64,000 bases of DNA from Nannochloropsis oceanica (lineage: Eukaryota; Sar; Eustigmatophyceae; Eustigmatales; Monodopsidaceae): assembly GCA_004519485.1 (NCBI GenBank), contig CP038130.1:1470449-1534448 (forward strand). Direction: 5' to 3'. The number at the start of each line of letters is the position of its first letter. Within the stretch, counting starts at the first letter, position 1. Positions 1-45,863 of this stretch are shown here, piece after piece. Position numbers and translations under genes: made by a program. Below the pieces are notes generated by a model. It made no database searches and was not told the DNA's origin. It was given only the letters and a program-made list of their open reading frames with translations.

Positions 1-1553
1 ACAAAGTTCACGGTCTATTGTTTCTAAACAACTACCCTGAGACATATAGTTATGCTTTGACCAAAGGGATCAATTCAGGACTGCCAATCCTCTACACAAA
101 CATAGGTGCTATTGCAGATCGGGTCGCTGCGGAGAACAACACCGCAAAATATATTGCCACTGACAATACTGATGTGACTCAAAAGTTTGACTCTTTGCTA
201 ACCTTTATTCGAAAGCACGCTGGACTGGGAGAAAAGGACCAGACGTTATCCGTGCTTGAAAAGGAGAACCTCGTCGAAATACCAGTATTCTACGACAGTC
301 TCTTTTTTAGAAGCGCTTTGGATATCATTAATTGCGTGCAAAACAACCACAACCGTTTTAGCAAGCATTTTGCCGAGATCCATCGCCATATTCAACCCTA
401 TGCCATATTTTTCCCTCAATTTCATCCCATCCCTGAAAATAACATCAACTTTTATGAAGGCTATACGGATATGACGAATTTAGTCGCAGCCAAGCTGGAG
501 GATCCCAGCTTATTGACACCGCTGAAAAATCTCTTGGGCTTTTACGATTTGATGCAAAATAATGAGATGATTCCAAGACAAATTCAGGTTGCAAAATCAT
601 ATGGCATAGCTGGATTCGCCATTTATTACTATTGGTTCAGCGACAATTCCGTCAGTCAAAAAAACATGGTCTTCCAAGAGGTAATAGACCGATTTTTTGA
701 AACTGTCTTAAAGGATTTCTCAGTCTTCTTTGTGTATTGTAACGAAGCGTGGACCAAGAACGTGGCTTTTGGAACCCATAAAGGTGGATACACGATTGCA
801 AATAACTATACTGCAGAGAACATCAGGATGAATATGCTCAATCTCGTCAAGTATTTTAAGCACCAAAATTATCGCAAAATCGGAAATCGGCCACTCTTCT
901 TCTTGCATCATCCGCATGAAATGACAGATACTGAGATTCAATTGCTGAAGGCAGTAGGTGATTCAGTTATGAGAGAGAACGGTTTTTATGGAATTGAACT
1001 AATCGTGGACGGCAGGGAAGGGACGTACCCAGGTTTTCCTGGGTACTACTTGCATGCAAACTACAAGTCACCAAAATCCACTGTGTTCATGAAGACCTCA
1101 ACCCGCCCCCAGCATATCGACTACAAAGCGTATGTGCGCAAATTCTTGCCGAAGGAAGAGAAGTTGGGAGACAATTCTAGCACGATAAATTCAGTTTTTA
1201 CAAATTTTGACAACACCGTGCGTTTTTATGCACACGACGAGGACCGGCAATTCGAGGGTGTGGGCAACAAGGCAATGTTCATGACACGGACTCAAGGAAG
1301 GAAGGTCGCGCTTTTTAAGGAGTTCTTAGATGTGCAACTTGTGAAATACTCTCAAAAGTCTGATCCCATTTCACAGATATTCCTCATCAATGCTTGGAAC
1401 GAATGGGGTGAGCAAATGGTGTTGGAGCCGTCGAATGAAGAGGGATTTGCGTACCTTGAAGCTTTTCAGGAGAGGTTATTGCTCGCCCCTCTTTCAGATA
1501 GCGTACATAGCAGTGCATCCAGTAGATTGGGTGGAAGGGGAATACATTCATGA
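1..1553 (+). CDS. GT4/WbsX-like glycosyltransferase, 3' part
   Basis: Open from the window edge (reading frame begins at base 3) to TGA at 1551-1553, about 517 codons. It matches codons 368-883 of the complete gene at 20217-22868, so only the N-terminal anchor and most of the GT-B N-domain are missing. The segment shows the end of a GT4-like domain (ETYSYALTKGINSGLPI) followed by a WbsX/GH99-like domain: FFPQFHPIPEN, then GIAGFAIYYYWF, CNEAWTKN and NAWNEWGE. In bacteria WbsX-type domains occur in O-antigen and capsule synthesis; here a Golgi glycan role is inferred. No intron is visible. It is probably the same locus as 54668-56220, assembled twice. Product class is well supported; substrate is unknown. 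Confidence 0.85.
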   Translation, partial: KVHGLLFLNNYPETYSYALTKGINSGLPILYTNIGAIADRVAAENNTAKYIATDNTDVTQKFDSLLTFIRKHAGLGEKDQTLSVLEKENLVEIPVFYDSLFFRSALDIINCVQNNHNRFSKHFAEIHRHIQPYAIFFPQFHPIPENNINFYEGYTDMTNLVAAKLEDPSLLTPLKNLLGFYDLMQNNEMIPRQIQVAKSYGIAGFAIYYYWFSDNSVSQKNMVFQEVIDRFFETVLKDFSVFFVYCNEAWTKNVAFGTHKGGYTIANNYTAENIRMNMLNLVKYFKHQNYRKIGNRPLFFLHHPHEMTDTEIQLLKAVGDSVMRENGFYGIELIVDGREGTYPGFPGYYLHANYKSPKSTVFMKTSTRPQHIDYKAYVRKFLPKEEKLGDNSSTINSVFTNFDNTVRFYAHDEDRQFEGVGNKAMFMTRTQGRKVALFKEFLDVQLVKYSQKSDPISQIFLINAWNEWGEQMVLEPSNEEGFAYLEAFQERLLLAPLSDSVHSSASSRLGGRGIHS

Positions 1554-2250
1554 TAAGCTAAGAGTAAGTGTATTTCCATAGAAAACGGAGTCAAATCCTT
1601 GGACTCCAAGGAATCCATGGAAGAAAGGGGAGGGAGAGTCCAAACCAAGGGGTGGGCCTCAAAACGTAACGCTAGCTCGTAATGAAATGTACGAAAAGAA
1701 AAGCGTAGACGTCTATCATTATAACTACATTATTCACAGCATCTCATTCATATGGCAAAGATTTCAACTCTGCATTTTTATTTTTATTTTGGGGGGGGGC
1801 TCTCCTGGTAGTGTCTACTGAAGAGATTGCGAAGGGAAGGCAGAAGTTTACACTGAACTGGGGAAAACCAGCTCGACGATTGGATTTTGAATGCTAAGGG
1901 TAGTATCAGTTTGAGTAAAGTCTAAGCCCATTCATGTTTCTCACTTTATCTTCTCCAAATAACGCACGCCTTCACTTGCACTCTGCTAAGTATTTTGTCA
2001 CCATGCTGGTGGCGATTTTGCCACTTCAGTATATTGCACTATTTTAATTTTGTGTACAAAGTGACGAGATAATTTCGGACGAGGTCACGTCATCCGTCTC
2101 CCCAAACTATGTACAAGCGACGACTTACAGCAGATGAGGACGCATTACATCAACTAACGAATGAATTCACGTGCAGGGCCTGAATTGTCCAAAACTTGTG
2201 CGACATGTGGTGCAGGCGTGTGCGATGATCACTATGATGCTCTTTCAACC
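1554..2250. other. Intergenic, no gene seen
   Basis: This stretch lies between the WbsX-like stop and the transposon-family fragment. It contains short homopolymers (a G run near 1792) but no reading frame or RNA gene I can support. The same sequence recurs at 22869-23565 and 56221-56917. Confidence 0.6.
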
Positions 2251-2581
2251 GGAATGGTGCTGGAACAAAGGAGCGACTTGTTCAGAGCGGGATGGCGTTA
2301 TCGTCCCGCGAAAATGCCAGTGGCCTGATGCCGGCAGCTAACCCGTCATGCGGGTCGGGCTTATTTTTGTGCTCAAAATATGATAGAAGTAGATGTCACC
2401 ATGCCGGTGGCAAAGCGCCTAGAGGCGAATAAATCCCTAAAAAATAAAAACAATAAAAAAACTTAAATAACTTTCTGTATAGTCCGTATCAGGTTGTAAT
2501 GTCGGTGGCTTGTAATGGTGATTAAAACCCCAAAAAAGTAAAAAGAACAGAAAACGCACATAACTTTCTGTATAGTCCGTA
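2251..2581 (-). repeat. Degenerate inverted-repeat element fragment with two right ends
   Basis: Bases 2251-2400 match, in reverse orientation, the spacer and inner arm of the intact inverted-repeat element at 9247-9638 (shared blocks include AAAGGAGCG, CGTCCCGCGAAAA and GCCAGTGGCCTGATGCCGGC). The fragment then carries two successive copies of the terminal motif TAACTTTCTGTATAGTCCGTA, ending at 2487 and 2581. The second is preceded by the conserved GGTGATTAAAACCCCAAAAA block. The arrangement suggests a nested or partially duplicated non-autonomous DNA transposon. No transposase frame is present. Confidence 0.7.
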
Positions 2582-2878
2582 ATAATAAAACTATAATATT
2601 TTTTTTTACACTTCTCCTTTTTCTCTACACCTCTTTTCTTGTCCTGTACTAATTTTCACTGCCCTAACGATCCTTTACAGTGTAAAGGTCAATCGCACAT
2701 CTTTGTGTGAGACAATGCCCGGGACTGACCAACGGATGTCGGAGACGTAATGACCCTTCTCCAAAAAGTACTTGTCGAAGAAGAAAGAAATCTGCACATT
2801 GCATGCCTGCTTTCCAAGAATTCATGGCGTCGGGGGATGCGTACAAGAAACCTCTGAATATAATTTCAAAAGAAATGA
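2582..2878. other. 5' flank of double-domain glycosyltransferase gene
   Basis: A pyrimidine-rich run (about 2600-2645) and a short palindromic piece (CCTTTACAGTGTAAAGG, 2671-2687) lie upstream of the glycosyltransferase start. This may hold promoter or 5' UTR sequence. No coding signal is recognised. Confidence 0.4.
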
Positions 2879-5800
2879 ATGACATTGATGAGGAGAGGGA
2901 ATAGCTGCAACCTCACTATAATGCAGCGCTTCAAGAAAAGCTTCGAGAGAAGTAGACATTCTCTGTCTTCTTGGCGACGATATTCTCATAATGCCACCAT
3001 TTTGATGCTCGCCTTTTTTGTGGTTGGCTGGACCTTAAACCAGACGTATCTCTTGTCCCTTATTGATGAGCAGAAGATTTCAGAAAGAGCGATTTACACA
3101 GATGAGACAAGGAAGGGACTACCTTTGAAAGACAAACATCTCTCCAAAATCAGTCATCAAAATCTGACCTGTGTCCAGCCTTTGTACGGAGTGGATAATC
3201 GACAATTCAAAATTTTGTGTACATTTGAGATTTCAGACGCCCACACTTACTCGGGGATCTTGTACGACCCCAATGGAGCTTGCAATTCATTATCAGTGAA
3301 AGCCCTAAACGGTCTGCTGTCGGGTGGAGGAAGCTTAAAGATTGAATGCGCAACAAGTGGTACCGAATCAAGCTGGCTGTGGCATTTGCAGGTGACGGGA
3401 ACTTGCCCCGTCCTCCCAATTTCTGATCACCGCAGACCAGAAGCAAACGCATCTGTTACTGTTCCGGCCGTGGAGATTCAAGATAACTCAAAGAAATCTA
3501 GAATCTTCAATGTTTGCCCCCAAATTCTGCGTTCCCCCGGCCGGTTTCTGTTTTTTAAACTTGGCGAAGATTTTGCTGACCAGTTAATTAGTATAGCGAG
3601 TGCAATAATGCTAAGCCGGAGACATGGCTTTACATTAGTTCTTCCTTCTGATCTCTCAGCACCATTCTCTTTGATGGAAGTGGCGGAAGGGAAGGGAAAG
3701 AAGGCCCCACTCTCAGTTCTATACAACCTAGCGAGGCTGGAGCACACACTATCGAATGCCGGTTATACAGTGACATTGGACCTGCCGACAAGTAAAAATG
3801 GCCATCTTTCTTGGTTTAAGGACGCACTGGACCGTCATAGTGGCATACGAGAGGTTGATTTTTCGCTTCTCAAGTACTCAAGGCTCGAAGATATTGTGGT
3901 AGATATTGGAGACCTCTTTCTCGACATGATTTCGCTTGATGATATATTGCACACAGAGCTTTTCCAAATTGTCCAGTTCCTTGCTTCATCCCTCAATCCC
4001 CTGATTTACTCGTCTGTAGAGCATCTGCGACAGACTTTGACCTCCATGAATCCAAAGGGGTTCAATGCTCTGGATTTTTTAATGGAGCATGACATGCCTC
4101 TGAATGTTTCAGGTGCAAAAAGCCTGGAGGCCCAATGGGAAGAAGCTTTTGTCTCACACGTAGCATTTGATGCACAGCTACCACTTTACATCGCCGGCGG
4201 AAATACAGGCGCACATAGAAAGTGTCAGCAGCTTTTATGCACTGACAAGTTCCTTCTGGGTGCCATGACATTCTTCCCAGAAGTGTTAAAGAGGTCCCCG
4301 GAAGTTATGGCTGCGGTCGATATGCTGCTTCTTGTGGAGGCCAATAGCTTCACTGGACTGAAGTATTCTACTTTTTCACATTTGATTGCGACACTACGCG
4401 ACGCTCGATTCACTTTCCACGTGCAAGATTCCTCCATGCTACATCCTTTCCACGACCTTGTAAGATTTGGGACTCTGACTCCCTTGCCGCCCTGTCTCTG
4501 TACAAAGGAGAAAATCGAAGCTCTAAGATCGTTGGATACTGATTCCAAAAGCAAAAGGAAGCTGGCAGAGATCCGTTCATACATTAAAAGACTTGGTTTA
4601 TCTTCCATACCTTTGGTCTTCGAAATGACCTATATTTTGAATTTGTTTGAAACACCTGGAAAAGAGGACCTTGCAACGCAGGTGCTGCTTGAGTTTACAG
4701 CTTCTCATCACTCAGATAGATTGGTTGAAGGCCTGCGTCTCTTTTTGGAGCGAGATCCTATTCATGAATCCTTATTCGCCCGCGCTCTTTGTCATCACTT
4801 TCCCAGTATCGGTGATGTGACATGCAAAACGGCTAAACCGAGCAGGCTTCTTATTGTGTCGCATAGCTTGGTATCAGATGGTGCCCCCGTCGTTCTTGTG
4901 GACTATATCCTCTTTCTGTCTCGCGTCTTGAGATTGGATATAAAAATTGTGACCAGGGCAGGCATGCCACAACATACATCCCTTCAGCGTGACCTTGAAA
5001 GAGCTAATATTCCTATTAGCTACGACAGCACATTCGACGCAAGAGATTTTGATGTCATCTATATCAACACTCTGGACATGTGGTGGTACAATGGCCTTTG
5101 TTCGAAAGCAAAACGAGAAATATCTGCATCCGATGGATGGGCTTCAAAAGTCATATGGTGGGTGCATGAATCTGCAAGAGATCATTTCACAGATGTTCAT
5201 CCCTACTTGCCAAAAGTCTTGAAAAGTGTAAATCAGGCTATTTTTACTACGCCTCAGAGCCGAGATGTCTACAAAGACATTATTGCCGACATTCCCTCTA
5301 CCGTCATTGCGAACCCATTGGACATCAATTTAAGTCGGGATGCGCAGTTGCAAAGGCTTCGTCTCAAACACCGATCTGAAGAAATACAAGTGACCACCTC
5401 CGTCACATTTATATTGATCGGAACAGTTCACCCTGGCCGTCACCAGCTCGATTTTGTGCATGCTGCACTGCAGCTCCTTCAATCTTGCCCGAAAGCTCAG
5501 ACTTTTTATTTCGTTATCGTCGGATTTGATGGGGTCGCAGATGAGTACGAGGCAGAAGTGAAAGCGGCAATAGATGATGCGGGAGAGGATGTCGCGAAAC
5601 ATTTCAGATTAGTTCCTAGATTAAGTCACTATGATTGCCTCCAATTGCTATCTGGTGCTGATGTCCTGGTAAGCATGAGCGACTTTGAGGCATTTGGAAT
5701 GACACTCCTAGAAGCCATGAGCATGGGGAAACCTGTCATCACCAGCAAAGTGGATGGCGTGCCGAGTGTTATTTACCACGAAGCTATAGACGTGCCCTTA

Positions 5801-6067
5801 GGAAATGTTCTTCTTCTAAAAGAAGCTATGGGGTCCATGCTGGAGGAAAAAAATAGGTCCTTGCATGCGATGCTAGCGATCCGGCATTATGAAAATTTCC
5901 AAACACTCGATACCAGGCTCAGACATATTCAAGTTCTTGCGAACGCTATCAGGGGGAAACAAATAGTGTCACATTCTCCTCCTCTCGATACGAAGACCTT
6001 AGAACAAAAAAGAAAACACAAGATTAAAAGCCATAGACGAGGAAGAAAAAAAAGGAAGATAAATTGA
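2879..6067 (+). CDS. Double-domain glycosyltransferase (fucosyltransferase-like + GT4)
   Basis: Intact 1062-codon frame without introns. The true start may be the ATG at 2921 (residue 15), just before a basic stretch and a single hydrophobic segment at residues 39-58, a type II signal anchor. Residues about 221-260 (GRFLFFKLGEDFADQLISIA) and 481-507 (ANSFTGLKYSTFSHLIATLR) resemble parts of eukaryotic O-fucosyltransferase-like or GT11-type enzymes. This match is by eye and tentative. From about residue 655 a GT4 GT-B domain starts (SRLLIVSHSLVSDGAP); it contains the E-x7-E motif at E937 and E945 (SDFEAFGMTLLEAMSMGKPV). Nucleotide-sugar transfer in the Golgi lumen is inferred. The gene follows the WbsX-like gene on the same strand by about 1.3 kb. 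A truncated copy starts at 24194 and a frameshifted copy at 57545. Confidence 0.85.
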   Translation: MTLMRRGNSCNLTIMQRFKKSFERSRHSLSSWRRYSHNATILMLAFFVVGWTLNQTYLLSLIDEQKISERAIYTDETRKGLPLKDKHLSKISHQNLTCVQPLYGVDNRQFKILCTFEISDAHTYSGILYDPNGACNSLSVKALNGLLSGGGSLKIECATSGTESSWLWHLQVTGTCPVLPISDHRRPEANASVTVPAVEIQDNSKKSRIFNVCPQILRSPGRFLFFKLGEDFADQLISIASAIMLSRRHGFTLVLPSDLSAPFSLMEVAEGKGKKAPLSVLYNLARLEHTLSNAGYTVTLDLPTSKNGHLSWFKDALDRHSGIREVDFSLLKYSRLEDIVVDIGDLFLDMISLDDILHTELFQIVQFLASSLNPLIYSSVEHLRQTLTSMNPKGFNALDFLMEHDMPLNVSGAKSLEAQWEEAFVSHVAFDAQLPLYIAGGNTGAHRKCQQLLCTDKFLLGAMTFFPEVLKRSPEVMAAVDMLLLVEANSFTGLKYSTFSHLIATLRDARFTFHVQDSSMLHPFHDLVRFGTLTPLPPCLCTKEKIEALRSLDTDSKSKRKLAEIRSYIKRLGLSSIPLVFEMTYILNLFETPGKEDLATQVLLEFTASHHSDRLVEGLRLFLERDPIHESLFARALCHHFPSIGDVTCKTAKPSRLLIVSHSLVSDGAPVVLVDYILFLSRVLRLDIKIVTRAGMPQHTSLQRDLERANIPISYDSTFDARDFDVIYINTLDMWWYNGLCSKAKREISASDGWASKVIWWVHESARDHFTDVHPYLPKVLKSVNQAIFTTPQSRDVYKDIIADIPSTVIANPLDINLSRDAQLQRLRLKHRSEEIQVTTSVTFILIGTVHPGRHQLDFVHAALQLLQSCPKAQTFYFVIVGFDGVADEYEAEVKAAIDDAGEDVAKHFRLVPRLSHYDCLQLLSGADVLVSMSDFEAFGMTLLEAMSMGKPVITSKVDGVPSVIYHEAIDVPLGNVLLLKEAMGSMLEEKNRSLHAMLAIRHYENFQTLDTRLRHIQVLANAIRGKQIVSHSPPLDTKTLEQKRKHKIKSHRRGRKKRKIN

Positions 6068-6350
6068 TGGGTCCCCCAAAAAATGACGATATAAATTGTG
6101 GAGATAGGGAATAGTAAAAAAAATAGCGGGTACGCCCGCCCTGTGGGCAGGCAGGGGTGTGTATTTGTTGCGTGAGTAATAGGAAAAGAAAGGGGTGGGA
6201 AAGGAGGAAGTATGGGGGAGCATGTAGACTATGTGCACACCTGGGGGAGTGCATTGTGTAATGGTGTGTGGTGTGTGAAGAAGTAGGGGAAGAACAAGAA
6301 AGGAAGAGTCCTTTTTGTATGTTCTTTTTTTGTTTCTTTTTTGTGGGTCA

Positions 6351-6479
6351 AACAAATCCCAGGGGCAGACCTTTCAACAAGTTGCAATCTACTTGCCGTA
6401 CCCGGTATTTGCCCACGGTCAGCTCTACGTCACGCTCTCGAGAGCGAGAGTAGGAGGCCCCATCAACATCACCATGATG
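6351..6479 (+). pseudogene. Pif1-like helicase C-terminal fragment (Helitron remnant?)
   Basis: A frame here reads NKSQGQTFQQVAIYLPYPV followed by FAHGQLYVTLSRARVGGPIN. This closely resembles the conserved C-terminal end of Pif1-family helicases, where an NKSQGQT-type motif and an HGQLYVALSR-type motif carry the last helicase motifs. Nothing upstream in any frame matches the rest of a helicase; a GT gene ends only about 280 bp before. In eukaryotes such scraps are common debris of Helitron transposons, whose Rep-helicase ends in this domain. An exon of a larger host gene is possible but no partner exon is visible. The same fragment is at 61022-61150. Confidence 0.7.
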
Positions 6480-6915
6480 ATCACTCACCTTCCTCTGCAC
6501 GGCCAGCGACCTCCTGCACTCACCACACCCAATGTGGTGTCTGTAAGCAAGTGTTTGTGTACATGCGACCAGCACAGCCACCACTACAGCAACCCCAAGA
6601 AATGATGGAAGCATAGAATACCACTACAACGCACAGACAGGCCTCATTAAAAAAGAGGAAAGACCCCCCCAAAAATAAACAGACCCCCGACACAGACTCT
6701 CTCTGATAACACCGAGTTGAAAGCGCGGATGTTGGGGTTAAACTAGCGGCTCCTGCGCGTATTGGGTTTGAACAGGTTGCATCTCAGATGGTGTGTCCGG
6801 CACCCACCCTCTTTTGCAACAAATGCTGAAAATAAGGCCGGCGGGGTTACGATCCACCGACTCATCCGGCTAATTCAAGGAGCCGCAGTGCTGGCAAGTC
6901 ATTCGAGCTCCCAAG

Positions 6916-7077
6916 TTACATGGATGTTGGCTCCAGGAAGTCAAACTTGTATGCGGGCGCGGTGCTCGCGTGGTCGATGCTGTGCGCGCTGGTCATGCGT
7001 GGCCTCACGGTCAGCTGCACGTTCGGCTGTCCGCACTTCTGGCTCTTTGCACCGCCCTCGACGGGCTTGCCGTTCAG
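6916..7077 (-). CDS. Possible minus-strand exon, unknown protein
   Basis: On the minus strand, after an AG at 7079-7078, 53 codons run to a TAA. They show a strongly coding-like pattern with G/C third positions. The peptide contains LNGKPVEGGAKSQKCGQPNV and ends KFDFLEPTSM. I recognise no family. A possible donor (GTAACT) overlaps the stop, so it could be an internal exon. The counterpart at 61586-61749 has two extra bases that break the frame, consistent with sequencing error there. It could be an exon of the broken gene that lies further along on the same strand, but I cannot link them. Confidence 0.3.
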   Translation of the reverse strand: MNGKPVEGGAKSQKCGQPNVQLTVRPRMTSAHSIDHASTAPAYKFDFLEPTSM

Positions 7078-7584
7078 CTGCGCACTGGGTTACAAGTACT
7101 TCGGGGTTCAAGCGCCGGCGTTGTCGACCCTGTCGGTCAGCTAATGTCAAGCCGGCCTTGCATCATTCGTACTTCCCGCTCTATTTCCTGGTAAAACATT
7201 TTTCCATGGAAACTGTGTGTACAATTTCCCGAAAAAAGAGAACCGGTGACATCGGATATTTTTTAATCGTAGCTCGTGGTAGACAGTTTGGCAAAGACCT
7301 CTCCGATTTCGAACGGCTGATATTGCAGCTTTGGGAACAATAAAAAAGAGCAAAGTAGAAAGACAAAAAGTGCAGGTATTCTATATAGCCTGCTTTCAAC
7401 CATCTTGGGAGGCCTCTGTATGAGCGTTATATTTTTTTTCTCCTGAGAATATATATCTTGTAGGTGTGAAAGGATTGAGTTGTTACAGCGCTCACTCCGT
7501 CATCTATTTTCAACGGCCTTCCGTCAAGGTTTCGCGCGGAAAAATGCGCTGCAAATTACCTATTAGGGCTTGCACAGTCCAAGA

Positions 7585-7727
7585 CTCGGATAATGCCTCC
7601 TCCATTCGATGCTACTGCGACGAACATCCCGGTGCCGCCCGGGGTTCCATACGCGACACTAACCCACTCTTTAGAGGAGGGCGAATGAAATGTCCATGGA
7701 TTTTGTGTGATTGGGGGATTTGGATAA
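7585..7727 (-). pseudogene. Fragment with VAYG...FVAVASN repeat-type motif
   Basis: The minus strand reads WTFHSPSSKEWVSVAYG, then MFVAVASNGGGII. This resembles the repeated WxSVAYGNGLFVAVAS-type motif seen in many large secreted or beta-propeller-like repeat proteins. Only one repeat is present, preceded by a proline-rich stretch. It may be the tail of a longer secreted protein whose other exons are lost. In the copy at 62256-62398 compensating indels change the middle of the motif. Confidence 0.4.
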
Positions 7728-7918
7728 GGAGGTGGAGGTGATGGTGGGGGAGGCGGTGGAGGTGTTGGCGGGGGTGTTGGTGGAGATGTTGGTGGTGGCG
7801 GTGGAGGCGGTGGAGGCGGTGGGGGTGGTGGAGGTGTTGGCGGGGGTGTTGGTGGAGGCGGTGGAGGTGTTGGCGGTGGTGGAGGCGGTGGAGGCGGTGG
7901 AGGCGGTGGGGGTGTTGG
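7728..7918 (-). repeat. GGTGGAGGC-type minisatellite (Pro-rich on minus strand)
   Basis: About 190 bp of imperfect GGTGGAGGCGGT / GGTGTTGGCGGGG units. On the minus strand one frame gives PPPPPTPPPPP-like repeats continuous with the VAYG fragment, so it may once have been a proline-rich linker. The plus-strand Val/Gly/Glu frame is a by-product. The copy at 62399-62590 differs by several small indels, as expected for a repeat that slips easily or is read poorly. Confidence 0.8.
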
Positions 7919-7948
7919 TACAGAAAGTTACTTAAATAACTTTCTGTA
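7919..7948. repeat. Head-to-head fused transposon termini (palindrome)
   Basis: TACAGAAAGTTA and its inverse TAACTTTCTGTA are separated by six bases and followed by TAGTCCGTA. These are the two ends of the inverted-repeat element at 9247-9638 joined with almost nothing between them. This points to internal deletion down to the termini or an excision footprint. The matching site at 62594-62624 has lost bases on the left arm. Confidence 0.75.
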
Positions 7949-8057
7949 TAGTCCGTACGGATTACGTGTATTGTGTATTGTTGTTGCCACGCGCTCCGCG
8001 CGCGCTTTATTTGAACAGCTATATACGGTGTGTCTATCAGTATTCTTTTTACCATAT

Positions 8058-9166
8058 TTACTCACATTCTTGAGGGGGTGTCAGGCCTATGCACTTAGAG
8101 GCATTTGCCAGCTGAGGTAGGCACGCATGACCGTCTCTTAATTTGCTCCCACGTCGACCACCAAGTGTCTCACAACACAAGGGCCTTTTCTTGAAACTTC
8201 CAATGCACGGCAGAGTACAGTGCTCCATTCTCCACGAAGGATGCCCCCCATAAGTCCCCTTATCATTATTTTGACAGTACCACGCGGCGGATACGAAGGG
8301 GCCACTCGCAACCAAAGAATACGCCTGTTTATCTGTCATCGTAATGGACGTTCCTGTGACGTTCACCGTAATCACGTCGCAGTCGGGTTCGGGAAGCTAA
8401 GTTTCTCGAGCACGTTCAGATTGTCGAGCTTCTAGAGATTGTTGGGGTATATTTTTTTGATAGGAAGTCCCTGAGAGTCCAGACTGGCCACCAGGTCGAG
8501 ATCATGCAACACAATTCTGGAAGCCCCCGGCGAGACCTCAGGCTCTATCCATGCCAACGTCGCCTCAAACGCATCCATCACAGTGTCGGATCCCGTCAGG
8601 GGCACGTAATTTGATCGGACGGTGAACTTGTACGTGTGCACCCATCCAGTCGACGTCTCTGTCGAGTCCACGACAAACAGGGACGGCTGAGACGCGGCGG
8701 TTCCCAGTCACAAGACCCTCGTCATCCGGACTTGTTCAAAGCCCTGGTATTTATTGGAAGGAGGGCCTAGTTTGATGGTGGAGGTAAGGTTGACATACTT
8801 CTCTACAGGGACACATGAGTTGATAAGCATCGCTTTAATCAAGACCCCCGAGGGAACGAATCTGTCGGCAGAGTTCTTAACTCCGGTGGGGTACCATCCC
8901 TCCATAAAATACTGGCGGAGTAACAGTGCCAATCCAGACACATGAGGGCATGACATGGACGTTCCCTGCCTTCTCCCTGTATCGCAGCTTGTCTGAGTCT
9001 TGGCGGAATTAATGGCGTTGCCAGGTGCGATCAAGTCGGGCTTGATGCGGCCGTCGATGGTAGGTCCGATGGAGGAGAAGTAGGCAACGGACAATTTCGG
9101 TCCGAGAGACGAAAGGGGTTCAAAAATGGTCTCCGCGCAAGAAATGGAGAATTCGCAAGGACGAGT
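8058..9166 (-). pseudogene. Subtilase (peptidase S8) remnant
   Basis: The minus strand encodes the C-terminal part of a subtilisin-like serine protease. It shows AYFSSIGPTIDGRIKPDLIAPG, then the catalytic-serine motif GTSMSCPHVSGLALLLRQYF, then the post-catalytic TGWVHTYKFTV domain and a Cys-containing tail ending at TAA 8060-8058. No Asp or His catalytic region is found upstream. The first exon starts after an AG at 9167 and the inverted-repeat element sits 80 bp beyond. An in-frame TAG follows YPNNL near 8432 in both copies, so it is unlikely to be a read error. A separate frameshift near 8700 differs between the copies and may be error. I infer a truncated, probably dead gene for a secreted protease. 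Confidence 0.75.
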
Positions 9167-9246
9167 CTAAGCCCTTACAGTTCAATGCTCCCAACTCTCC
9201 CTCATCTGATTGATTGCTTGCATCCCTTTACCGGGTCAACGGACGA

Positions 9247-9638
9247 TACAGAAAGTTACCTAAGTTTTTTGCTCTTTTTACTTTTTTGGGGTTTTAATCA
9301 CCATAACGAGCCTTGTTACCGGCATAAAGACATCTCCTTCTATCATATTTGGAGCACCAAAATAAGCCCGCCCCGTAGGGGAAGCTGCCGGCATCAGGCC
9401 ACTGGCGTTTTCGCGGGACGATGACGCCTTTCCGCTCTAAATAAGCCGCTCCTTTGGCTGCCGGTCATTCCGCACCAACGAGTGGGACTGATGCCGGCAG
9501 CTTCCCCTACGGGGCGGGCTTATTTTGGTGCTCCAAATATGATAGAAGGAGATGTCTTTATGCCGGTAACAAGGCTCGTTATGGTGATTAAAACCCCAAA
9601 AAAGTAAAAAGAGCAAAAAACTTACATAACTTTCTGTA
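9247..9638. mobile_element. MITE-like inverted-repeat element with 151-bp arms
   Basis: The left arm 9247-9397 and right arm 9488-9638 are inverted repeats of each other over 151 bp with only two mismatches (in the ACCTAAG/ATGTAAG region). A 90-bp spacer (9398-9487) separates them. The ends read TACAGAAAG...CTTTCTGTA, consistent with a TA target duplication as in Tc1/mariner-type elements. Other family members carry a further TAGTCCGTA outside the end, so the exact boundary is open. No transposase is encoded. Near-perfect arms imply recent insertion or arm homogenisation. Related fragments lie at 2251-2581, 7919-7948, 39143-39350 and 63937-64000. Confidence 0.85.
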
Positions 9639-10028
9639 GTATCAGCGTTGCAGCTCTTCAATCTCAAATCCGAGAGTATGTGACTATTTTTTCTCTGTTG
9701 AAGAAAAGGCGAAATGAAATAAAGACGATGAATCTCAAGCTGCGCACGTCTTGTTATCTACGTAAAGTCGAAAGGGTTTTCAATGCGACGTTAGTAAGAT
9801 TCAACCACCGTCAGATGAAGGGTTTGAAAGAGCTTCAGCAAGTATTTCTTTTTCTCTTTTTATTTGATCTTTTTCTCGCTCGCCAGAACCAAATTCAGAT
9901 AGAGTATTTGCGTCCACCCACCTCGCTGCCCAAAATATATACAACTCATTCACTCCCAAAATGGCAACAAAACTATCAAATATGACAGGGACCCTTTCAA
10001 CTTTTGACTCCAGACCAAAAACCCGACA
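9639..10028. other. Intergenic, 5' flank of GT61-like gene
   Basis: AT-rich sequence between the inverted-repeat element and the GT61-like start. No recognisable gene is present and no upstream exons of the subtilase remnant were found. Confidence 0.5.
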
Positions 10029-10801
10029 ATGGGTGCGTTTAGTAATACTAAACTCTCTCATTTCGAGAAGTTACCTTTTGCTTACACCAGTCTACTTATT
10101 GTGGCAACCACAGCATATTTGGGGCTGATTCGGGGACATATTTATGAGACCGCTTGTTGGCCAATTATGTCGCAGGCTGCTGCATCGGAAGGAAGCCATT
10201 CAAATATGGCCAACAAAACAGGATCTCATCGATCAACACCTGAGATGCTTGTGCAGACAATATATGGTACAAATATAAGTGGGAGGCCTATTTATGTCTC
10301 GTCCACTCATAGTAACCTGTATTATATCCCCACAACAACCATGTGGGATAACGTGTATAAGGGAATGCTTTTCGATGACAAACAGAAGATTGTGCCTTTT
10401 TCATCCTTTAATGCACTTGGAGGTTTAGATCGGGCTCCTCTCGAAGAGGGCCTCAAACCTCTTGTTACCATGGCTGATACCGAGGCCGATCGCATAGATG
10501 AAAACGTTGTCCTGATTACATTCTGGCATCAGTCATGGGGTCACTTGATAGACTCAATATGTGTTCTTACGGACTTCTTTTATCGCCATCGGCTTAATGA
10601 GCTAGGGTACAAGGTCATGCTTTCAGTACCAGAATGCCCATGGGCAGAAAATGTACTCGAAATTGCACGAACGCTACTTGGAAATCATTTCGTCAACCTC
10701 CGGGAGCTTGAAGATTCAAAACGACTCCTGTCGTTTCAAGAAGTAATCCTTGTTCACCAGGCGCCTTCCAAGGTGTCCTTTTTGAGTTTTCCACAAAATG
10801 T
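10029..10801 (+). CDS. GT61-like glycosyltransferase, 5' part
   Basis: About 258 codons are open from ATG 10029 into the N gap. The N-terminus has a short cytoplasmic stretch and one hydrophobic segment at about residues 17-34, a type II Golgi anchor. The segment FWHQSWGHLIDSICVLTDFF resembles the conserved region of GT61 (DUF563) enzymes that precedes the missing C-terminal half. The diagnostic HGAGLTN-type motif would lie in or beyond the gap. It is not a copy of the complete GT61 gene at 39900-41459. Third in a same-strand run after the WbsX-like and double-domain glycosyltransferase genes. Family assignment is moderate because only the N-terminal half is seen. Confidence 0.6.
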
Positions 10802-10901
10802 NNNNNNNNNNNNNNNNNNNNNNNNNNNNNNNNNNNNNNNNNNNNNNNNNNNNNNNNNNNNNNNNNNNNNNNNNNNNNNNNNNNNNNNNNNNNNNNNNNN
10901 N
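10802..10901. other. Assembly gap of 100 N
   Basis: Exactly 100 undetermined bases, the usual placeholder for a gap of unknown size. The left side breaks the GT61-like gene. The right side begins at TACGGCTGAG, the same base where the second copy of this block begins to match (44265). Confidence 0.98.
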
Positions 10902-12385: not shown

Positions 12386-12510
12386 GTTGTTTAGGAGGAG
12401 CAGATGTGAGGAGCCTAGTGAGGGGCTCCTTATGTTCCATGCAATTGTCCTTGCGTGAAATAATTGATAAAGTAAGCTATCGAGCTCTTCAATATGTCGT
12501 TTTTAACACA

Positions 12511-13664: not shown

Positions 13665-13779
13665 GAACGGACGGAAATCCGATGAGATTATATCTTTTCG
13701 ATATGCGCCTCCCTTCCCATTTCTCCCACTATATTATGGCGTGGCACCAACATTTATGCTCGATTAAGAAGTCAGGCGG

Positions 13780-20144: not shown

Positions 20145-20216
20145 GTATGGTTGAATTACATCGTATGATATCCTCGTTTTTAATATCCCCACATCTGTAG
20201 GCGGCTTCAGCAAGAT

Positions 20217-29167: not shown

Positions 29168-32100
29168 ATGGATAATATTCTCCCGCAGGACGACTCGGAC
29201 CCTAGCACCGGTGGCGACGGCAACCACCATCATGTGAACTCCCTCCACCAACAGCACACTCACCACCTCAGCCACCATCACCTTGTACTGACGCACCATT
29301 CCCAACTTCTGGGCGATGAGGGTGCGGAGGATGGCCTGGACATTAACTGCATGGTGGTGATGGACTCCGAGGAGGGGGGGAAAGGCAGCGGGGGGGATGA
29401 AGAGGGAGAAGGAGGGGTGGATGCCAGCGTACATCACATCCACCACCACCTTCATCACGATGCAGGGACCGAGGACGAGGACCTGGTTTTGTTGCTGGCG
29501 CGGGAGGACCAGCAGCAAACCGAGGAAAGAATCTTAATCCCCTCGGCGGCGGATGCCTGGCTGCAGCCGATGCAGCAGGACTCAAGGCCTTCCTATATCC
29601 TTCCTTCCGCGCCGCCACTGGAGCCGTCGGGGCCGCCATTGTACTACCAGTCTTTAGGGTTGCCACACTGCACTGCAGGTCCTCTTCAGCACCAGCAGAG
29701 TCCTCTTCAGCACCAGTACCAGCAGTTTGTGACCCTTCCCCTTCTTCACGTGTTAGATAATCGAAATGTGTCATCAACACTACCACCACCATCGGCCGCA
29801 CGAACAGCAATAGGGACAGTATCAAGAGCGCCTTCTTTGAGTTCGCCATCACAGCAGCAGCAACAACAACAACAGCTGCAACAGATGGAGCGCCGACGGC
29901 AGCGGGATGATGAGGAAATGACGGGGTCGCCTCAGTTTGGGGCCAACGAAGCACTAGTGGCTGCGCAGCAGCAGCAGCAGCAGCAGCAGAGGAAAAAGAA
30001 GATGAGAAAGAGGAAGATGGGAGGGCAGAAAGAGCCTGTGTTTGTGCGTATGCGTGAGGCAGCACCAGCACATATTACAGGAGGGAAGAGGAATGTCGTG
30101 GGAGAGGAGCAGGACGGAGTGGCTGCTGTCCTTGGTGGCCAGGCCCTCTCCTCACTGGCAAGACGAACGCACGCCGAGGAGGAGGAAGAGTACGAATACT
30201 TCCCGTCGCAGCAGCAGCAGCAGCAACAACAACAGCAACAACAGCAGCAGCAACAGGAGGAGGAGGAATCTCAACAACAGCAGCGAGAAGCTATGCCCTC
30301 CTCTTCTTCTATCCCTGTTTCGACAGCCTCATTGGTAGGCATGACAAGCACGAGCCCTACCACCAACAAGAAGCGCGAGCGTAGCGGTAGCGGGGTCAGA
30401 ATAGGAGAAGGGACAGTAGAAGGGAAAGGAGAAGAAGGAAGGGGAGGATATGGAGGAGGAAAAGAATATGGAGAAGGAGAAGAAGGTGGAGGAGGCAATG
30501 GCGGCGAGGGTAAGAATTTGGTAAGGCTCACGCCGGCACCATCGTTCTCAAGTAAGGTCCAGGCGGTAGTGCAGGTGGGCGAGAGAGGAGAAGAGGAGAG
30601 CGGGAAAGCCGATGCACTCATTGTGCAACCACTTGGAACTGCTTCAAGCCCGCCGCTCGTGTCGGAGTCAAGCGAGGAGAGAGGACAGGGAGCCGAAGCG
30701 GAGAGGAAGAGCGAGGAGGAAGGGGAGGAAGAGGGCAGTGAGGAAATATCACGCACTGTCAGCATGGTCATAAAATCGTGCAGTAGGGATACTAGTACAC
30801 CCGAGGGCTTTCGCTCTCTCGACTCCAGCGACTCCTTCTCCTCCTCCTCTCCCCCTCCCCCCATCCCCCCCCACCCGGTAGACCAAAAGCACGAGCCACT
30901 GCCACTCTCCCGGAAGGCCTTCGCGCGCCGACGGCAGCTGACTGCGCCTAATTTCTTCCCCTGGCAGGAACAGTCGGACAAGAGCTTCTACAAGGACGCA
31001 GTCTACGTCTTCTACAAAAAAGTCTTGCCCTTTGCCGACCGGCTGCGGAGGACAGGCCGCACCAAGGCCGAGTGGCTGAGGCTGTTGAAGGAGGCAAACC
31101 CGGGCATGCCTGGGATGGGAATGGAAGAGCAGTACTTGCTGTTGGTGGCCATGTGGGATTATTACAGGGATAAGTTTTTCGTGCCCTTGTCTGTGCCCTG
31201 GGGAGGGAGGAAGGAGAAGGAAGGAAAGAAAGAGGAAAGAAAGACGATGGGGGAGATAGAAGAGTCAAAGGTTAAAAAGTGGTCCAAGGCGGCGGAAGCG
31301 AAGCACGAGGCAATGCTAACAGGGGCAGACTGCATAAGCTCTTTCGGTCCAGGCGCCGATGCCGCGTGTGGGGTCCCAGGAGAAGCAGCAGCAGAGGCCG
31401 AAAAGGCCTTAGCAGTGCCTTCGTCTGTGCCTTACACGTGTCCTACCAATGCTGCGGACGTTCTTAACACGACCAGAGAGGGCAAGGGAGAGTTACAGAA
31501 GGAGAAGCAGGGAGACGAGAAAGAATCTACGGAGACAGGAGACGATAAGAAGGAGGAGAAGGAGGAGGAAGAGCAGCAGCAGCTGCAGGGGGGGAAGAAG
31601 GAGGAGGCAGCCTCGCATGAGCAGTGTCTGTATGCGCTGAAGATCTGCTCGTCGAAGAATAACGAGAACTTGACCCTTCGCATCTTTCGAGAGGCTACTT
31701 GGACCAATGGCATGCTCCAGCTCTTCCTCCACCTCTGCTACGGCTACCTGGAGGAGGAGGTTGAGATGGAGGGAGGGCAGCTGGCGATGACTCGAGAGGA
31801 GTACATTGTGCGGCCGCGGGCAGAAGAGGTGTATGAGGCGAGGGAGGAACACTTCTTGAGAAAGTTCATGAAAGGCTGTCTGAAGGAAGGGGTATTTGGG
31901 GGGGAAGGGAAGGGGGGAAGGGAAGGGGAAGGGATAGTGGTCTGGGAGGAGGGCGGTGCGACCGCGGGGGAGAGGCAGGCAGGGAGAGAGGAGGAGACGA
32001 GGAAGCAATGTGACGCGTTGGTGGCCCGAGGGGTATTGCTTAAAAATCTGGTGGAGATTCCGATGCAGGTGTTAAAAGAGAAAGAGGGGGGGCAGCAGGG

Positions 32101-32863
32101 AGGTGGTGGGGCTGGGCGGGGAGGAAGAGAAGACGAACCGCCAACCACGCCGAATCTCTTGCTGGAGGATCTTCCTAACACGCACAAGCAGTTCCCTTCG
32201 AGACAGAAGCAGCAGGTAGAGGAGAGGGGGAATGCAACTGCCACAGCAGCAGCAGCGACAGGAATCACGGACATGTCGCTCTCCCATCTGGCTCCCCAGT
32301 GCGTTTCCCACTGTCATTCCTCGTCCTCCAACCTCTCTTCCTCCTCCACCACTACCATCCGCCGAGCTGTCTACACCCTCCACCTCCCCACGGCCAGCAA
32401 AGACATCGAGTACTGGGATTTTACCCACCCTTGTGTCGCCCTCCTCCTTCAGCACATCGACCGCCTTGGCCCTTCCTCTCCCCCTCCCTGCCCTAACATG
32501 CATGAAAACTTTGGGACTAACTCTCTTTCCTTCACTCCCTCTTCCCCCTCCTCTCCCTCCCCTCCCTCCGCTCCCTCTTCTCCCTCCTCCTCGCGCCTGC
32601 TTGCCTCCGTCTTGTCCCTGTACAAGGCCCTTGTGACAGAGAAGCACGCGAAGGACGCAGACGTGAAAGCCGAGCACCTGCGTATGGGCAGCTTCGACCT
32701 GCTCTTCCCTCACCGCCCCGATTTTCTCTGTGCCCGCGCCCAGGCCATCGCTGCCTCTCCCTCCGCCCTGCAGACTCGAAACCGTCTCATCCCTTCTGAC
32801 GGTTCAAAGCTGATAGGAGGAGGACAGCAGTATCAGCACCACCACCACCAGCAGCAGCAACAA

Positions 32864-32898
<35 letters not shown>

Positions 32899-34138
32899 TC
32901 GCAAGGCAACTTTTCGAGGTGAAACAGCAGGAAAAAGGAAAGAAGAAGCCACGCAAGGAGGTGTAGGGAGGGGGAATGACAGAAAGAAGAGAAGGGGAAT
33001 AGAGGGTGTAGCTAAAGGTGGAAGGATCGCCACGTGCGTTGAGGACGAATTGGTCTTCCTGCCATTGGCAGATGAGGGCCGAAGGGGGAATTGGAAAAAG
33101 GAAGAAAAGGGGAAGGGGAAGGAGGGCAGGACGGGGCCTTATAGTAATGATGGGAGCATCCTAGGCTCGGGTGTACACGGGGAGGCTCAAAGCTGGGCGA
33201 GCAAGGCCGAAGAAGACGGAGGAAACGGGGCTGGAGAGAGGAAAGGTGGGCAGATGAAGGGGGCCGGCAGCAGCTGTAGCAAAGCGTCGCCCTCGAGGAC
33301 AGCCAAGATCACGACCAGCAGCAGCAGCAGCAGCAGCAGCACGACCACCACCGCCAGCACCAGTTGTTCGAATAGGATAAAGAGGCCTTTGACGATGGCC
33401 AAGGGAGGCTGCAAGAGGAAGAAAATCAGCTGGTCTCCTGGTTCACTTCTCGACCGAAACACCTGCCTTCTCCCTTCCACTGTGACGCCGTATGTCACCC
33501 CCCTCCTTCTTCGCAACCCCGACGACCTTCTCCTCTTCGAAACTGCCAAGAGAGCCAGAAGGGCGGCAGCAGATGCGAAGGCGAAGACAGCTGCAAAAGT
33601 GAGGGCTGCTGCTGTAGCGGCTGCGACAAATGTTAGGGCAGTTGCTGCTGCAGCAGAACTAGTCGTGCACGCGTTGCCTGGTGGAGAAGAGGGAAAGGGG
33701 GAGAAAGGAAAACAGAAAGCGATGCCGCTGAGCGTACCCGAAATAATTATGCCCCCGCCTTTGATCGTAAATGGGGAAGGACGCTTCCGGCAATCACAAC
33801 AGCAGCCACTGCAGCAGCACATGCTACTGCATCATATAGCCGTTATCTCAGGTGATGGGGAGAAAGACGAAGGAGAAGGAAGAGGAGGAGCAGGAGGAGC
33901 AAGAGAAGAGGAGCAAGGAGAGGAAATTTTGGAGCGGAATATCATGGTGTCTCAGCACCAGGAAGAGAGATCTCAAAAGCATCAAGTCGGGTTTCCAGGG
34001 ATGGGGGATATGAAGGATATGCAAATAGATTTCCCTAGGCTGGCAGGGGAGATAGAGCACCAGTCGAGATGTCAAAGGGGAGAAGGAGTTTTGGCAACGA
34101 GTGATTGTAGAGATATAACCTGTGTTGTTGCTGTCTGA
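29168..34138 (+). CDS. Large polyglutamine-rich protein, unknown
   Basis: Intact 1656-codon frame, unusual for this region in having no intron over 5 kb. It is His-rich near the N-terminus and Glu/Lys- and Gly-rich throughout. There are polyQ tracts at about residues 229-238, 268-274, 349-364 and 1226-1241, and a poly-Ser tract near 1380. Less degenerate islands may be folded: residues about 597-690 (FFPWQEQSDKSFYKDAVYVF, then MWDYYRDKFFVPLSVPWGG), 812-845 (ICSSKNNENLTLRIF) and 1155-1205 (MGSFDLLFPHRPDFLCARAQ). An Ala-rich helix-like stretch lies near 1470-1500. Lys/Arg-rich patches could be nuclear signals. A nuclear regulatory protein is the natural guess from composition, but no DNA-binding domain is recognised. 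G/C-ending codons match the neighbouring housekeeping genes. Confidence 0.8.
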
Positions 34139-38394: not shown

Positions 38395-39142
38395 AGGGAA
38401 GGCAGGAGGAAAGGAGGGATGGAGAAGGAATTGAGGGAAGGAAAATGATGTGTCAGGAAAGGAATGAGATGGATCGGACAAAAGATTACGGTGGAAATGG
38501 CACAATTTAAAATTTGTTTATACGCACGTGCGAATGAGATAGGGAAACTGGAAATGAGAAGACGTTGGCGATGATGTGGAGAAAAAGAAATACCACCAAA
38601 ATAGTTTTTAATTTGTGGGAGTTACCATCGTCTCACTTTTATTATATAATTGAGGGTGTTTCGTTCGTATCTTACCTTTTTTTTGCCATGTCCCATTTTA
38701 TCTTCGTTTGTGGTTTACGTGAGTCGTTCCGCCTGTCATTCGATATTGCGTGTGGATTGGCTCCTCTTTCCTCCGATCTACGTCCACACCCCACCCATAG
38801 ATGACGTTCTTTGACGATTGAGGAGTGCGAGTGCTGAATGTGGAGGCCTCTTTAAAATGATACTGTAAGAGAGTGGGGTTACTGAATAAGTGTAAGTATA
38901 TCACCAAAAATAGTTCGTAAAAAGGGTCAATGCTCAGGTACATCTATTTTATTATCCAAAGTGATTCATTTCCCACACTTTCTTGCATCTTACCTATTTA
39001 CAATACCCTCAACATGGTTGTAGTCAAACTTTTCCCGTCGTGGCCACCCGGGATATCTATCGCCACAGAGTAACACGTGGTCTACGGACATCCCCTGTGG
39101 ACTGTGTGTTTTTCAAGAAAAAAATAGAAATTCTTTTTTTGG
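38395..39142. other. Intergenic, no gene seen
   Basis: 3' flank of Bet1 and AT-rich sequence without supported frames. Confidence 0.5.
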
Positions 39143-39350
39143 GGGGTTAGTCACCATCACGTGTTTTGCCATCGGCATGACGGCATCTACTTCTATCATA
39201 TCGTGAGCGCCAAAATAAGCCCGCCCTGCGTAACGGGGTAGATGCCTGCATCAAGCCACTGGCATTTCCTTGGAACGATGCGCCATTCCACTTTGAAGAT
39301 GCCGCTCCTTTGGCTGCCGGTCATCCCGCGACCACGAGTCCTCGCACAAA
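39143..39350 (+). repeat. Diverged single arm of the inverted-repeat element family
   Basis: Shares ordered blocks with 9290-9480: GGGGTTAGTCACCAT, TTCTATCATAT, CCAAAATAAGCCCGCCC, AGCCACTGGC and GCCGCTCCTTTGGCTGCCGG. Many substitutions separate them, so it is an older copy. The opposite arm and the CAGAAAG termini are not seen. It shows that the family exists outside the duplicated blocks. Confidence 0.7.
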
Positions 39351-39899
39351 AAAAAGATAAAAGTGCTCTACAGACAAGCATGCGGCTCCTGGTCGACGGT
39401 GACCGACTCTCCGGGAATCACAAAACTTCCAGCAGTGGCACTAACGACGGCAGCACAACTGATGATAAATATTGATCCTGAAGCAAATGAGGTCCCTGGC
39501 GATTGCAGTCAGGCCTTGCAGGAGCAGATATAATGATGATTTTGCCTCCACTTTATATATATATCCACGCCATAACCCGCACCATAATCGTTGATCTGTA
39601 ACAACTGGCAGCCACGTATATCGTGGGGACCTATACGGCACTTAATGGCCCAGCCAAGTTATGAGGGGTCGGAAGCTCAAGAGGCGTTCTGTCTCACGGG
39701 CCTTCTCTAGACTTCGCACCACTACGCACATGGCTTGATCTCCATTGAAGTTCTCGGACCACGCGAGCGAGCGACTCCATTGCTCTCAAACATTAACAAC
39801 AACGCAGTAGCATAATTTGAATATTTAAATGGCTTCTTAAGTTTGCCAATTCTTAGTTCTTCGGTTGTTACAAATCACATGCAAAGGACAGAATTGAAT
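39351..39899. other. Intergenic, 3' flank of GT61 gene
   Basis: AT-rich and without recognisable genes; contains a TATATATATATC run near 39556. Confidence 0.5.
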
Positions 39900-41459
39900 T
39901 TATGCCGAACATGGCACGCGATGTAAATGAGCTGTTTGAGATATTGCAGCTTCCAGTAAAGGTCTAAAAAGTTGCAAATCGATTCTAGTTTTGGCTGATT
40001 TCATGCAGTAAAAGCATCCTCCATCTTCACCGCAGGCCTGAATGCTTTTGTTGAAGCCATTAAAGAGAGTTATACATGAGTCAGTCATGACTGTGTCATC
40101 GTTATTTTGGTTTATGTACTGGTGGTGACGGAGGCTCGAGGAAGTCGTGAGCCATTTGAAGTAATATGAGACATCGTATCCGAGGGGCAAAATTTCAATG
40201 ACCGCACTTCCCACCGGCATGAAAATGATGTTTGTTAATCCAGCACCATGGGGTGAAATGAGAATCCGGCTGTTCAACACCTGAGAAGCCTGATTAAATA
40301 CTGTGCCCTCAAAATCATTAACGACTCTAGGTCTAATCCCCGTGACATCGAAGACGAAATTCACCACTTCGTCAAAGTTTGCGATGCCCCGGGTAGATTT
40401 TCTTTGCACCATGACGATTTCTCCGGGCTGCGATTCGATTGCGGAAGTCCGTTCGCAAGGTTGTAATAATTTGAAATCCTTCGTTATATTCTGTAAATTG
40501 GATAGAGCGGCATCATTTGACTCTCCGTACGCGATAGGTTGCATTGCTAGGAAATCGTACAAATAACGCCTGAACAGTATCGAGCTAAATGGTGTCCCGT
40601 ACCAACTATAACTTGGAATAGTCAGTTGATCGAAGCAAACTATATAGTCAGTAGTGTTTTGTAAATGGGAGAGTCGGTCATCGATCATCCAGTTATGAAT
40701 TCCAAGTTCCTTCGTAAACCACTCTGTTTCCATTGGCAAATCACCTTTCCAACCAAGGAGGCGAAGCCAATCTTTTTCATACGAGCTTGCAAGCTCGTTC
40801 TCCTCTATAGCCGACAGAACAATATCGGTTAGATTGAGTTGAAAGCCTGTATCTCCTTGCCAGAATTGATATGTGCCTATCATGACACGATACGGGGGTG
40901 AAACACCAAACCTTTTCTTTTGACTCAATGTGTTGATTAGCGGCAGCAATGCCTCCACAAAATGAGGAATGTGGTACTGAAATGCCATGGATACGATTGT
41001 TGTGCCTGTTAGTTGAATTATCGCCAGATTATGTTGCGATTCTAAATCCTTCAAGGATTGCATATCCGACGTCACTTGCTGTCCCTCTCCGATGTATCTC
41101 AATACACGATCCATACTATACATATGCCCTTCAGCAGTAAAATTTCCCGTGTAGAAATTGCGAGGCATTTTGGGCGTCCAACACGTCTTTGTTAAAGTAC
41201 AAGTAGGCTTATCAGGAGCATCCTCAAAACAAGTCATATTTCCGTCCATAGGTAACGTGTGCAGGATTTTGGATCCGACGATCGAGGTTGCATCATCTTG
41301 ATTATACCAGTGAGGACGCAATCCTAGGGTTCTTTTTCTGATAGTTCCAACATTATCCCAATTGAAAACATGTACCCACAACTGAAGGTAAGATATCACA
41401 GATATGACAATTAGCAAGGTAAACTTGTTGAGAAATCGACTGCTGCCTCGCTGTTGCAT
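39900..41459 (-). CDS. GT61-family glycosyltransferase
   Basis: Intact 519-codon minus-strand gene without introns, starting at ATG 41459. A single hydrophobic segment at residues about 11-30 (NKFTLLIVISVISYLQLWVH) is a type II anchor. The family signature is near residues 405-435: NSRILISPHGAGLTNIIFMP then GSAVIEILPLG, the DUF563/GT61 core. HIPHFVEALLPLINTL near residue 175 corresponds to the N-terminal conserved helix. N-glycosylation sequons are frequent, as expected for a lumenal protein. GT61 members include xylosyl- and arabinosyl-transferases in plants and EOGT in animals; the substrate here is unknown. It lies on the opposite strand to the other glycosyltransferases and shares an upstream region with the coiled-coil gene. 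Confidence 0.9.
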   Translation of the reverse strand: MQQRGSSRFLNKFTLLIVISVISYLQLWVHVFNWDNVGTIRKRTLGLRPHWYNQDDATSIVGSKILHTLPMDGNMTCFEDAPDKPTCTLTKTCWTPKMPRNFYTGNFTAEGHMYSMDRVLRYIGEGQQVTSDMQSLKDLESQHNLAIIQLTGTTIVSMAFQYHIPHFVEALLPLINTLSQKKRFGVSPPYRVMIGTYQFWQGDTGFQLNLTDIVLSAIEENELASSYEKDWLRLLGWKGDLPMETEWFTKELGIHNWMIDDRLSHLQNTTDYIVCFDQLTIPSYSWYGTPFSSILFRRYLYDFLAMQPIAYGESNDAALSNLQNITKDFKLLQPCERTSAIESQPGEIVMVQRKSTRGIANFDEVVNFVFDVTGIRPRVVNDFEGTVFNQASQVLNSRILISPHGAGLTNIIFMPVGSAVIEILPLGYDVSYYFKWLTTSSSLRHHQYINQNNDDTVMTDSCITLFNGFNKSIQACGEDGGCFYCMKSAKTRIDLQLFRPLLEAAISQTAHLHRVPCSA

Positions 41460-45738: not shown

Positions 45739-45863
45739 GTTGTTTAGGAGGAGCAGATGTGAGGAGCCTAGTGAGGGGCTCCTTATGTTCCATGCAATTG
45801 TCCTTGCGTGAAATAATTGATAAAGTAAGCTATCGAGCTCTTCAATATGTCGTTTTTAACACA

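Follow-up and report, generated by a model that had tools for sequence, protein, structure and literature searches.

How did an enzyme of bacterial surface-polysaccharide type come to be encoded in an algal genome, and does its gene stand there alone or as a member of a cluster? The question is raised by a 64,000-nucleotide stretch of Nannochloropsis oceanica DNA (contig CP038130.1, positions 1,470,449 to 1,534,448; hereafter the window, with position 1 as its first letter), in which an earlier note had seen a functional cluster of four glycosyltransferase (GT) genes, possibly acquired by horizontal transfer. Here, we report that the window is best read as one eukaryotic nuclear locus, parts of which occur three times in the scaffold, with Golgi-type sugar-chain enzymes, one of which, the product of a WbsX gene, probably came from bacteria and was given a type II anchor; we assign this reading a rough probability of 55%. 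The earlier proposal is partly supported: a single bacterial-type gene carried by a eukaryote makes a sounder core than the composition argument, the existence of a cluster is unproven and the number of copies is doubtful. What was observed is a two-domain arrangement, two bacterial nearest relatives, exporter-bearing loci, an extra hydrophobic N-terminus and repeated DNA. The repeated segments and the WbsX genes that they contain are as follows.

1-10801: copy C of the repeated DNA.
10902-26609, plus strand: copy A, equal to 44265-59968.
44265-64000, plus strand: copy B, equal to 10902-26609 followed by 1-9310 and extending past the window end.
20217-22868, plus strand: WbsX copy A, complete, 883 residues, with an anchor at about 43-63, a GT4-like region at about 135-470, the WbsX domain at 500-854 and EWGE at 834-837.
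53569-56220, plus strand: WbsX copy B, complete, protein identical to that of copy A.
3-1553, plus strand: WbsX copy C, residues 368-883, with the 5' part beyond the window edge, 100% identical to copies A and B.

The WbsX domain is assigned firmly, as PF14307 is matched with E 7.8e-45 and 154.3 bits against a gathering cut-off of 25.1, over profile positions 2-349 of 350. The first half of the protein matches the GT4 family PF13439 below threshold (E 0.011, 16.2 bits vs 28.5; 17.8 bits when the stretch is searched alone), and because of this score it is called GT4-like here. A clear hydrophobic stretch lies at the N-terminus (17-residue Kyte-Doolittle value 2.15), near residues 47-63, inside the first 107-134 or so residues that fall outside the alignment with the bacterial proteins; presumably it is a type II Golgi anchor. 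Two AlphaFold2 models were both poor, with mean predicted local distance difference test (pLDDT) values of 42.6 and 35.8.

A genome scan with exact peptides of the WbsX protein returned seven stretches, two of which are relatives: L001, from a metagenome-assembled genome (MAG) of Ca. Microgenomates, and L002, from a MAG of an uncultured bacterium. The window protein is 41% identical to L001 over 737 aligned positions and 39% identical to L002 over 757, in both cases spanning both domains; for the WbsX domain alone the identities are 48.9 and 48.3%, vs 22.6-28.3% for 12 other rows. These rows belong to an unrooted tree of 15 (10 records picked by hand for taxonomic spread from 69 plasmid and phage records, two matches of genome G205, the two MAGs and the window protein), in which the window protein and the MAGs are split from the other 12 with support of 100/100 and the MAGs pair with 98/82. 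Eight of the 12 inner branches of the tree are open, and rows L014 and L002 have unusual composition. Since the two nearest relatives found are bacterial and share the arrangement of a GT4-like followed by a WbsX domain, transfer is supported for WbsX, the one gene for which this part of the earlier proposal stood; the other three genes give it no support.

The bacterial gene neighbourhoods are those of exported surface polysaccharides. Near the WbsX gene, L001 encodes a bacterial sugar transferase, ABC2_membrane, ABC_tran and a DegT aminotransferase, and L002 encodes ABC2_membrane, ABC_tran with Wzt_C, a family 2 glycosyltransferase and a DegT aminotransferase; on a Klebsiella pneumoniae plasmid, a pair of WbsX genes is found together with rfbC, rfbD, ABC permeases and a rhamnan synthesis F protein. 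In both L001 (8126-10084) and L002 (9011-10972), the WbsX gene is immediately followed by a gene for a protein of 652-653 residues that matches no Pfam family at E 1e-5.

In the mechanism that we propose, the WbsX gene would encode a bacterial-type surface-polysaccharide enzyme, in which a GT4-like domain is joined to a WbsX domain resembling glycoside hydrolase family 99 (GH99). It would have been acquired from bacteria, a type II membrane anchor would have been added to the protein in the eukaryote, and the enzyme may act on a glycan that is secreted or displayed at the cell surface, perhaps together with two neighbours described below, a double-domain GT (double GT) and GT61b. We infer the direction of the transfer, the Golgi location and the action on such a glycan. 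If the transfer is true, the eukaryotic secretory pathway has put a bacterial capsule-type enzyme to new use, one whose source is related to bacteria with very small genomes.

Several points weigh against this reading. Relatives were sought in prokaryote, plasmid, phage and viral collections only, so that vertical descent or transfer between eukaryotes lies outside the scope; the peptide scan, made over 84,980 species' genomes with six exact peptides, reaches genes with one such peptide; and the 12 outgroup rows of the tree were chosen by hand. The GT4-like plus WbsX arrangement is rare around its bacterial carriers: in the phylum of genome G001, three of 379 genomes match at E 1e-10, full-length in G001 alone; in the order of genome G002 it is found in one of 297 (G002 itself), and in the family of G001 in one of three (G001 itself). 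The GC content at third codon positions (GC3) of WbsX, 0.489, is also unremarkable among the four GT genes. The best alternative, which we regard as possible and clearly less probable than transfer, is an old eukaryotic GT4-WbsX family, inherited within eukaryotes and merely absent from the collections searched. Besides the range of those collections and a GC3 in keeping with the surroundings, it is favored by the long branch of the window protein (0.71, vs 0.19 and 0.25 for the bacteria). However, the bacterial relatives lie in ordinary export loci and carry more domains, which makes bacteria the likelier ultimate source.

Other sources gave nothing closer. WbsX matches were found in 67 plasmid and two phage records, none of which covers 80% of the query and all of which are less than 60% identical (22.9-28.5% in the 20 plasmid rows listed). 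As to a giant-virus origin, scans of viral contigs found no relative, with single-protein patterns that reach close relatives only; the pattern matches, none of them a relative, numbered two for WbsX, six for the double GT, three for GT61b, five for GT61a and 70 for alignment A1. A literature search on WbsX and algae returned bacterial O-antigens only.

The second question is whether the repeated DNA reflects the genome or the assembly. The features that bear on it are these.

10802-10901: a run of 100 N, a scaffold gap.
13775-20144, again at 47127-53496, plus strand: about three direct repeats of 2.01 kb, upstream of WbsX.
2879-6067, plus strand: double GT copy C, intact, 1062 residues, with a hydrophobic N-terminus, a weakly O-FucT-like N-terminal half and a C-terminal GT4 domain.
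24194-26609, plus strand: double GT copy A, truncated by the junction after residue 805.
57545-60731, plus strand: double GT copy B, in three pieces in three frames through small indels.
26609-26610: junction at which the copy-A double GT is fused to DNA with a PEBP gene lacking its 5' part (PEBP profile 27-122 of 135).

Self-BLAST of the window aligned 1-5294 with 21316-26609 at 100% identity, 1-9310 with 54668-64000 at 99.2% and 10902-26609 with 44265-59968 at 99.5%. There are thus up to three copies, 99-100% identical, and nearly all differences are small indels, with 57 gap openings and seven mismatches between A and B and 49 and eight between C and B. Such an excess of gap openings over mismatches fits sequencing error better than divergence, and the most likely explanation is that one sequence was assembled more than once. 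We regard it as unlikely that a unit of 33.4 kb (26610-59968) was really duplicated in tandem very recently, an event that would raise WbsX dosage and whose breakpoint would fall within the double GT and an intron of PEBP, though this accounts for some of the facts: the offset between A and B is about 33.36 kb, both genes are interrupted at 26609|26610, at the very place expected, and the proteins of WbsX copies A and B are identical. The numbers of gap openings and mismatches just given speak against it, as does the third copy, which sits beyond the 100-N gap. In addition, the broken genes are not the same from copy to copy: a zf-UBP frame (20.2 bits, under the Pfam cut-off of 22.7) is intact in copy B and broken in copy A, and of the double GTs copy C alone is intact, A being cut and B spread over three frames. 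We also considered the copy-B double GT as a decaying pseudogene and set this aside, as indels outnumber mismatches across the whole repeat. When the six 2-kb units were aligned, 13 of the 14 columns in which two or more rows deviated showed the same pattern in A and B; deviations confined to a single row amounted to 10 substitutions and 13 indels in B1, four indels in A1 and one indel in B2. A 207-residue frame inside the 2.01-kb direct repeats has no Pfam family match. For long-read assemblies in general, the caution is that seeming gene clusters may be repeated contig ends.

The third question concerns the cluster itself, which brings in two further genes.

10029-10801, plus strand: GT61a, called GT61-like in the earlier note, N-terminal 257 residues only, cut by the N run, family unproven.
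39900-41459, minus strand: GT61b, a complete glycosyltransferase 61 gene (PF04577, E 1.8e-12).

The earlier note had counted four distinct GTs. By Pfam this stands for WbsX, for the GT4 protein (the double GT) and for GT61b; GT61a is cut by the gap and has no family, and the repetition of the DNA had been missed. The C-terminal half of the double GT is a GT4 domain (PF13692, E 9.4e-17, 62 bits vs a cut-off of 27; PF00534, 60.5 vs 26.4), and its N-terminal half matches the O-FucT family PF10250 below the cut-off (13.5 bits vs 31.5, E 0.056). GT61b matches PF04577 with 48.1 bits vs a cut-off of 27, over profile positions 58-137 of 137. GT61a has no PF04577 match, the gene ending at the N run before the region in which GT61b matches; its 257 residues had no match among the Pfam, NCBIfam and PHROGs families, none to a PDB chain better than E 1.5 and none in G001 or G002. 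The type II anchors ascribed to all four proteins hold as clear hydrophobic stretches for WbsX and GT61b (2.12 by the same 17-residue measure); GT61a and the double GT have less pronounced ones (1.64 and 1.53, respectively).

The composition on which the cluster had partly been based was checked gene by gene. GC3 is 0.489, 0.455, 0.409 and 0.445 for the four GT frames (WbsX being the 0.489) and 0.584-0.795 for seven neighbouring coding stretches of our choosing, some of them exon fragments, so that the two ranges do not overlap and the GT genes are indeed AT-rich at third positions. The noncoding DNA beside the GTs has a GC content of 0.40-0.47 in five of six stretches, the sixth, downstream of the double GT, having 0.519; a noncoding stretch beside the AMPK beta gene is also low (0.450). 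GT61b is eukaryote-like yet has an equally low GC3, and composition therefore does not mark transfer. The succession of WbsX, double GT and GT61a on the plus strand was confirmed. WbsX, double GT and GT61b were likewise confirmed as intronless, each being a single uninterrupted frame in its best copy.

Nevertheless, a functional cluster did not emerge from these data: the three copies are one locus counted again, and GT61b lies on the opposite strand. That four GTs act on the same polysaccharide and have been kept, moved or selected as a unit appears improbable to us, more so than the duplication. In its favor, the four genes are anchored, intronless and low in GC3, in a range apart from that of the seven neighbours; they might span about 26 kb instead of 41 if copy C continues copy B; and the GT4 match of the double GT in both bacterial genomes (G001 and G002, one BLASTP match each, 55-57 bits) is the N-terminal GT4 domain of the WbsX-bearing protein itself. 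This last similarity is ordinary, because plasmid GT4s among the matches listed score up to 64 bits; the plasmid matches of the double GT, in 42 records, are generic GT4 similarity. For the same reason, we rejected the idea that the double GT and WbsX are halves of one split bacterial protein, the GT4 match being no stronger than the best listed plasmid GT4s. Close bacterial relatives were found for WbsX only, GT61b has matches of eukaryotic type, besides one weak plasmid record at E 1e-3 and a match in none of 379 genomes of the Microgenomates sample in a scan without positive control, GT61a is only a putative GT, and coding stretches unrelated to glycans lie in between. Transfer of the four genes as a unit has no support.

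The window is eukaryotic nuclear DNA by its AMPK beta module and its PEBP gene. Both neighbours were recovered as first described, the glycogen-binding module of AMPK beta lying in two separate frames, as if an intron intervened, and the PEBP gene being present with its start missing (profile 27-122 of 135); the Bet1 gene fared less well, with a weak SNARE match (E 0.013) under the Pfam cut-off. No tRNA was found in the window, and no Rfam match at gathering scores. At 29168-34138 there is a single open frame of 1656 residues with runs of Q, E, G and S and no Pfam match. Foldback elements and a peptidase fragment complete the inventory.

2266-2581: foldback element, resembling a miniature inverted-repeat transposable element, between WbsX and the double GT, with pieces 78-91% identical in common with 9239-9645.
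9239-9645: palindromic foldback element upstream of GT61a, with arms of 154 nucleotides, 98% complementary.
39135-39339: foldback relative on the 3' side of GT61b, with pieces 76.9-79.6% identical.
7919-9265: stretch with the subtilase fragment inside, flanked by a 27-nucleotide inverted repeat that belongs to the same foldback family (arms 7930-7956 and 9239-9265).
8711-9166, minus strand: subtilase (Peptidase_S8) fragment, PF00082, E 1.9e-14, profile 186-273 of 288.

Each of the three foldback relatives lies in noncoding DNA adjoining a GT gene. With up to two mismatches, the motif TACAGAAAGTTAC occurs 12 times in the window vs 1.23 expected, and six times without the repeat copies.

How does the locus compare with known systems? 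The nearest comparison is with the L001 and L002 proteins, which share the domain order, GT4-like then WbsX, and an identical WNEWGEQM motif with the window protein. They differ in carrying a further N-terminal GT4 domain and, in L002, also a C-terminal RgpF, and they have no hydrophobic stretch in their first 100 residues (17-residue maxima of 1.18 and 1.32), whereas the window protein has one. To the Glyco_tran_WbsX (PF14307) "glycoside hydrolase family 99-like" proteins of O-antigen-type loci, the window protein is related over nearly the full profile; with the plasmid and phage relatives listed, the similarity lies mainly in the WbsX half, at less than 30% identity. GT61b resembles the animal GT61-type enzymes EOGT and POMGNT2, with which it shares PF04577 and which are its best PDB matches (E 1.8e-4 and 4e-4, respectively); it differs from them in that the match is local, at about residues 349-441.

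The comparison with GH99 endo-alpha-mannosidases and endomannanases concerns the mechanism. In GH99, a motif EW[H/G]E holds two catalytic glutamates (PMC11025385, as far as its main text goes, in which WbsX is not mentioned), and EWGE at 834-837 of the window protein fits this motif, with E834 and E837 as candidate glutamates. Both glutamates are kept in all 15 WbsX rows, literally as EW[H/G]E in six and as EWAE in nine, and WNEWxE...EP is invariant in the 15. A profile of these rows matches the GH99 endo-alpha-mannosidase 4acy with E 1.9e-4 for the sequence and 0.052 for the stretch, NEW.E being aligned; a three-row profile reached only E 0.09. The other motif given there, H[I/L]EPY, occurs in none of the 15 rows and nowhere in the whole window protein, and the overall similarity is weak; the WbsX domain is therefore not filed as GH99. 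Our literature search found no paper joining WbsX and GH99. Judged from these sequence motifs, the WbsX half perhaps works like a GH99 enzyme, and since the glutamate pair is kept, "glycosyltransferase" may misname that half. One could go further and imagine a two-handed Golgi enzyme from Microgenomates-like bacteria, whose GT4-like half would add sugars and whose WbsX half would cut or re-join them, building and trimming a wall or secreted polysaccharide; this is a speculative idea, to which we give less credit than to any alternative above. The conserved glutamate pair, shared with GH99, allows a direct test of whether WbsX domains are transferases, which bears on many bacterial O-antigen loci.

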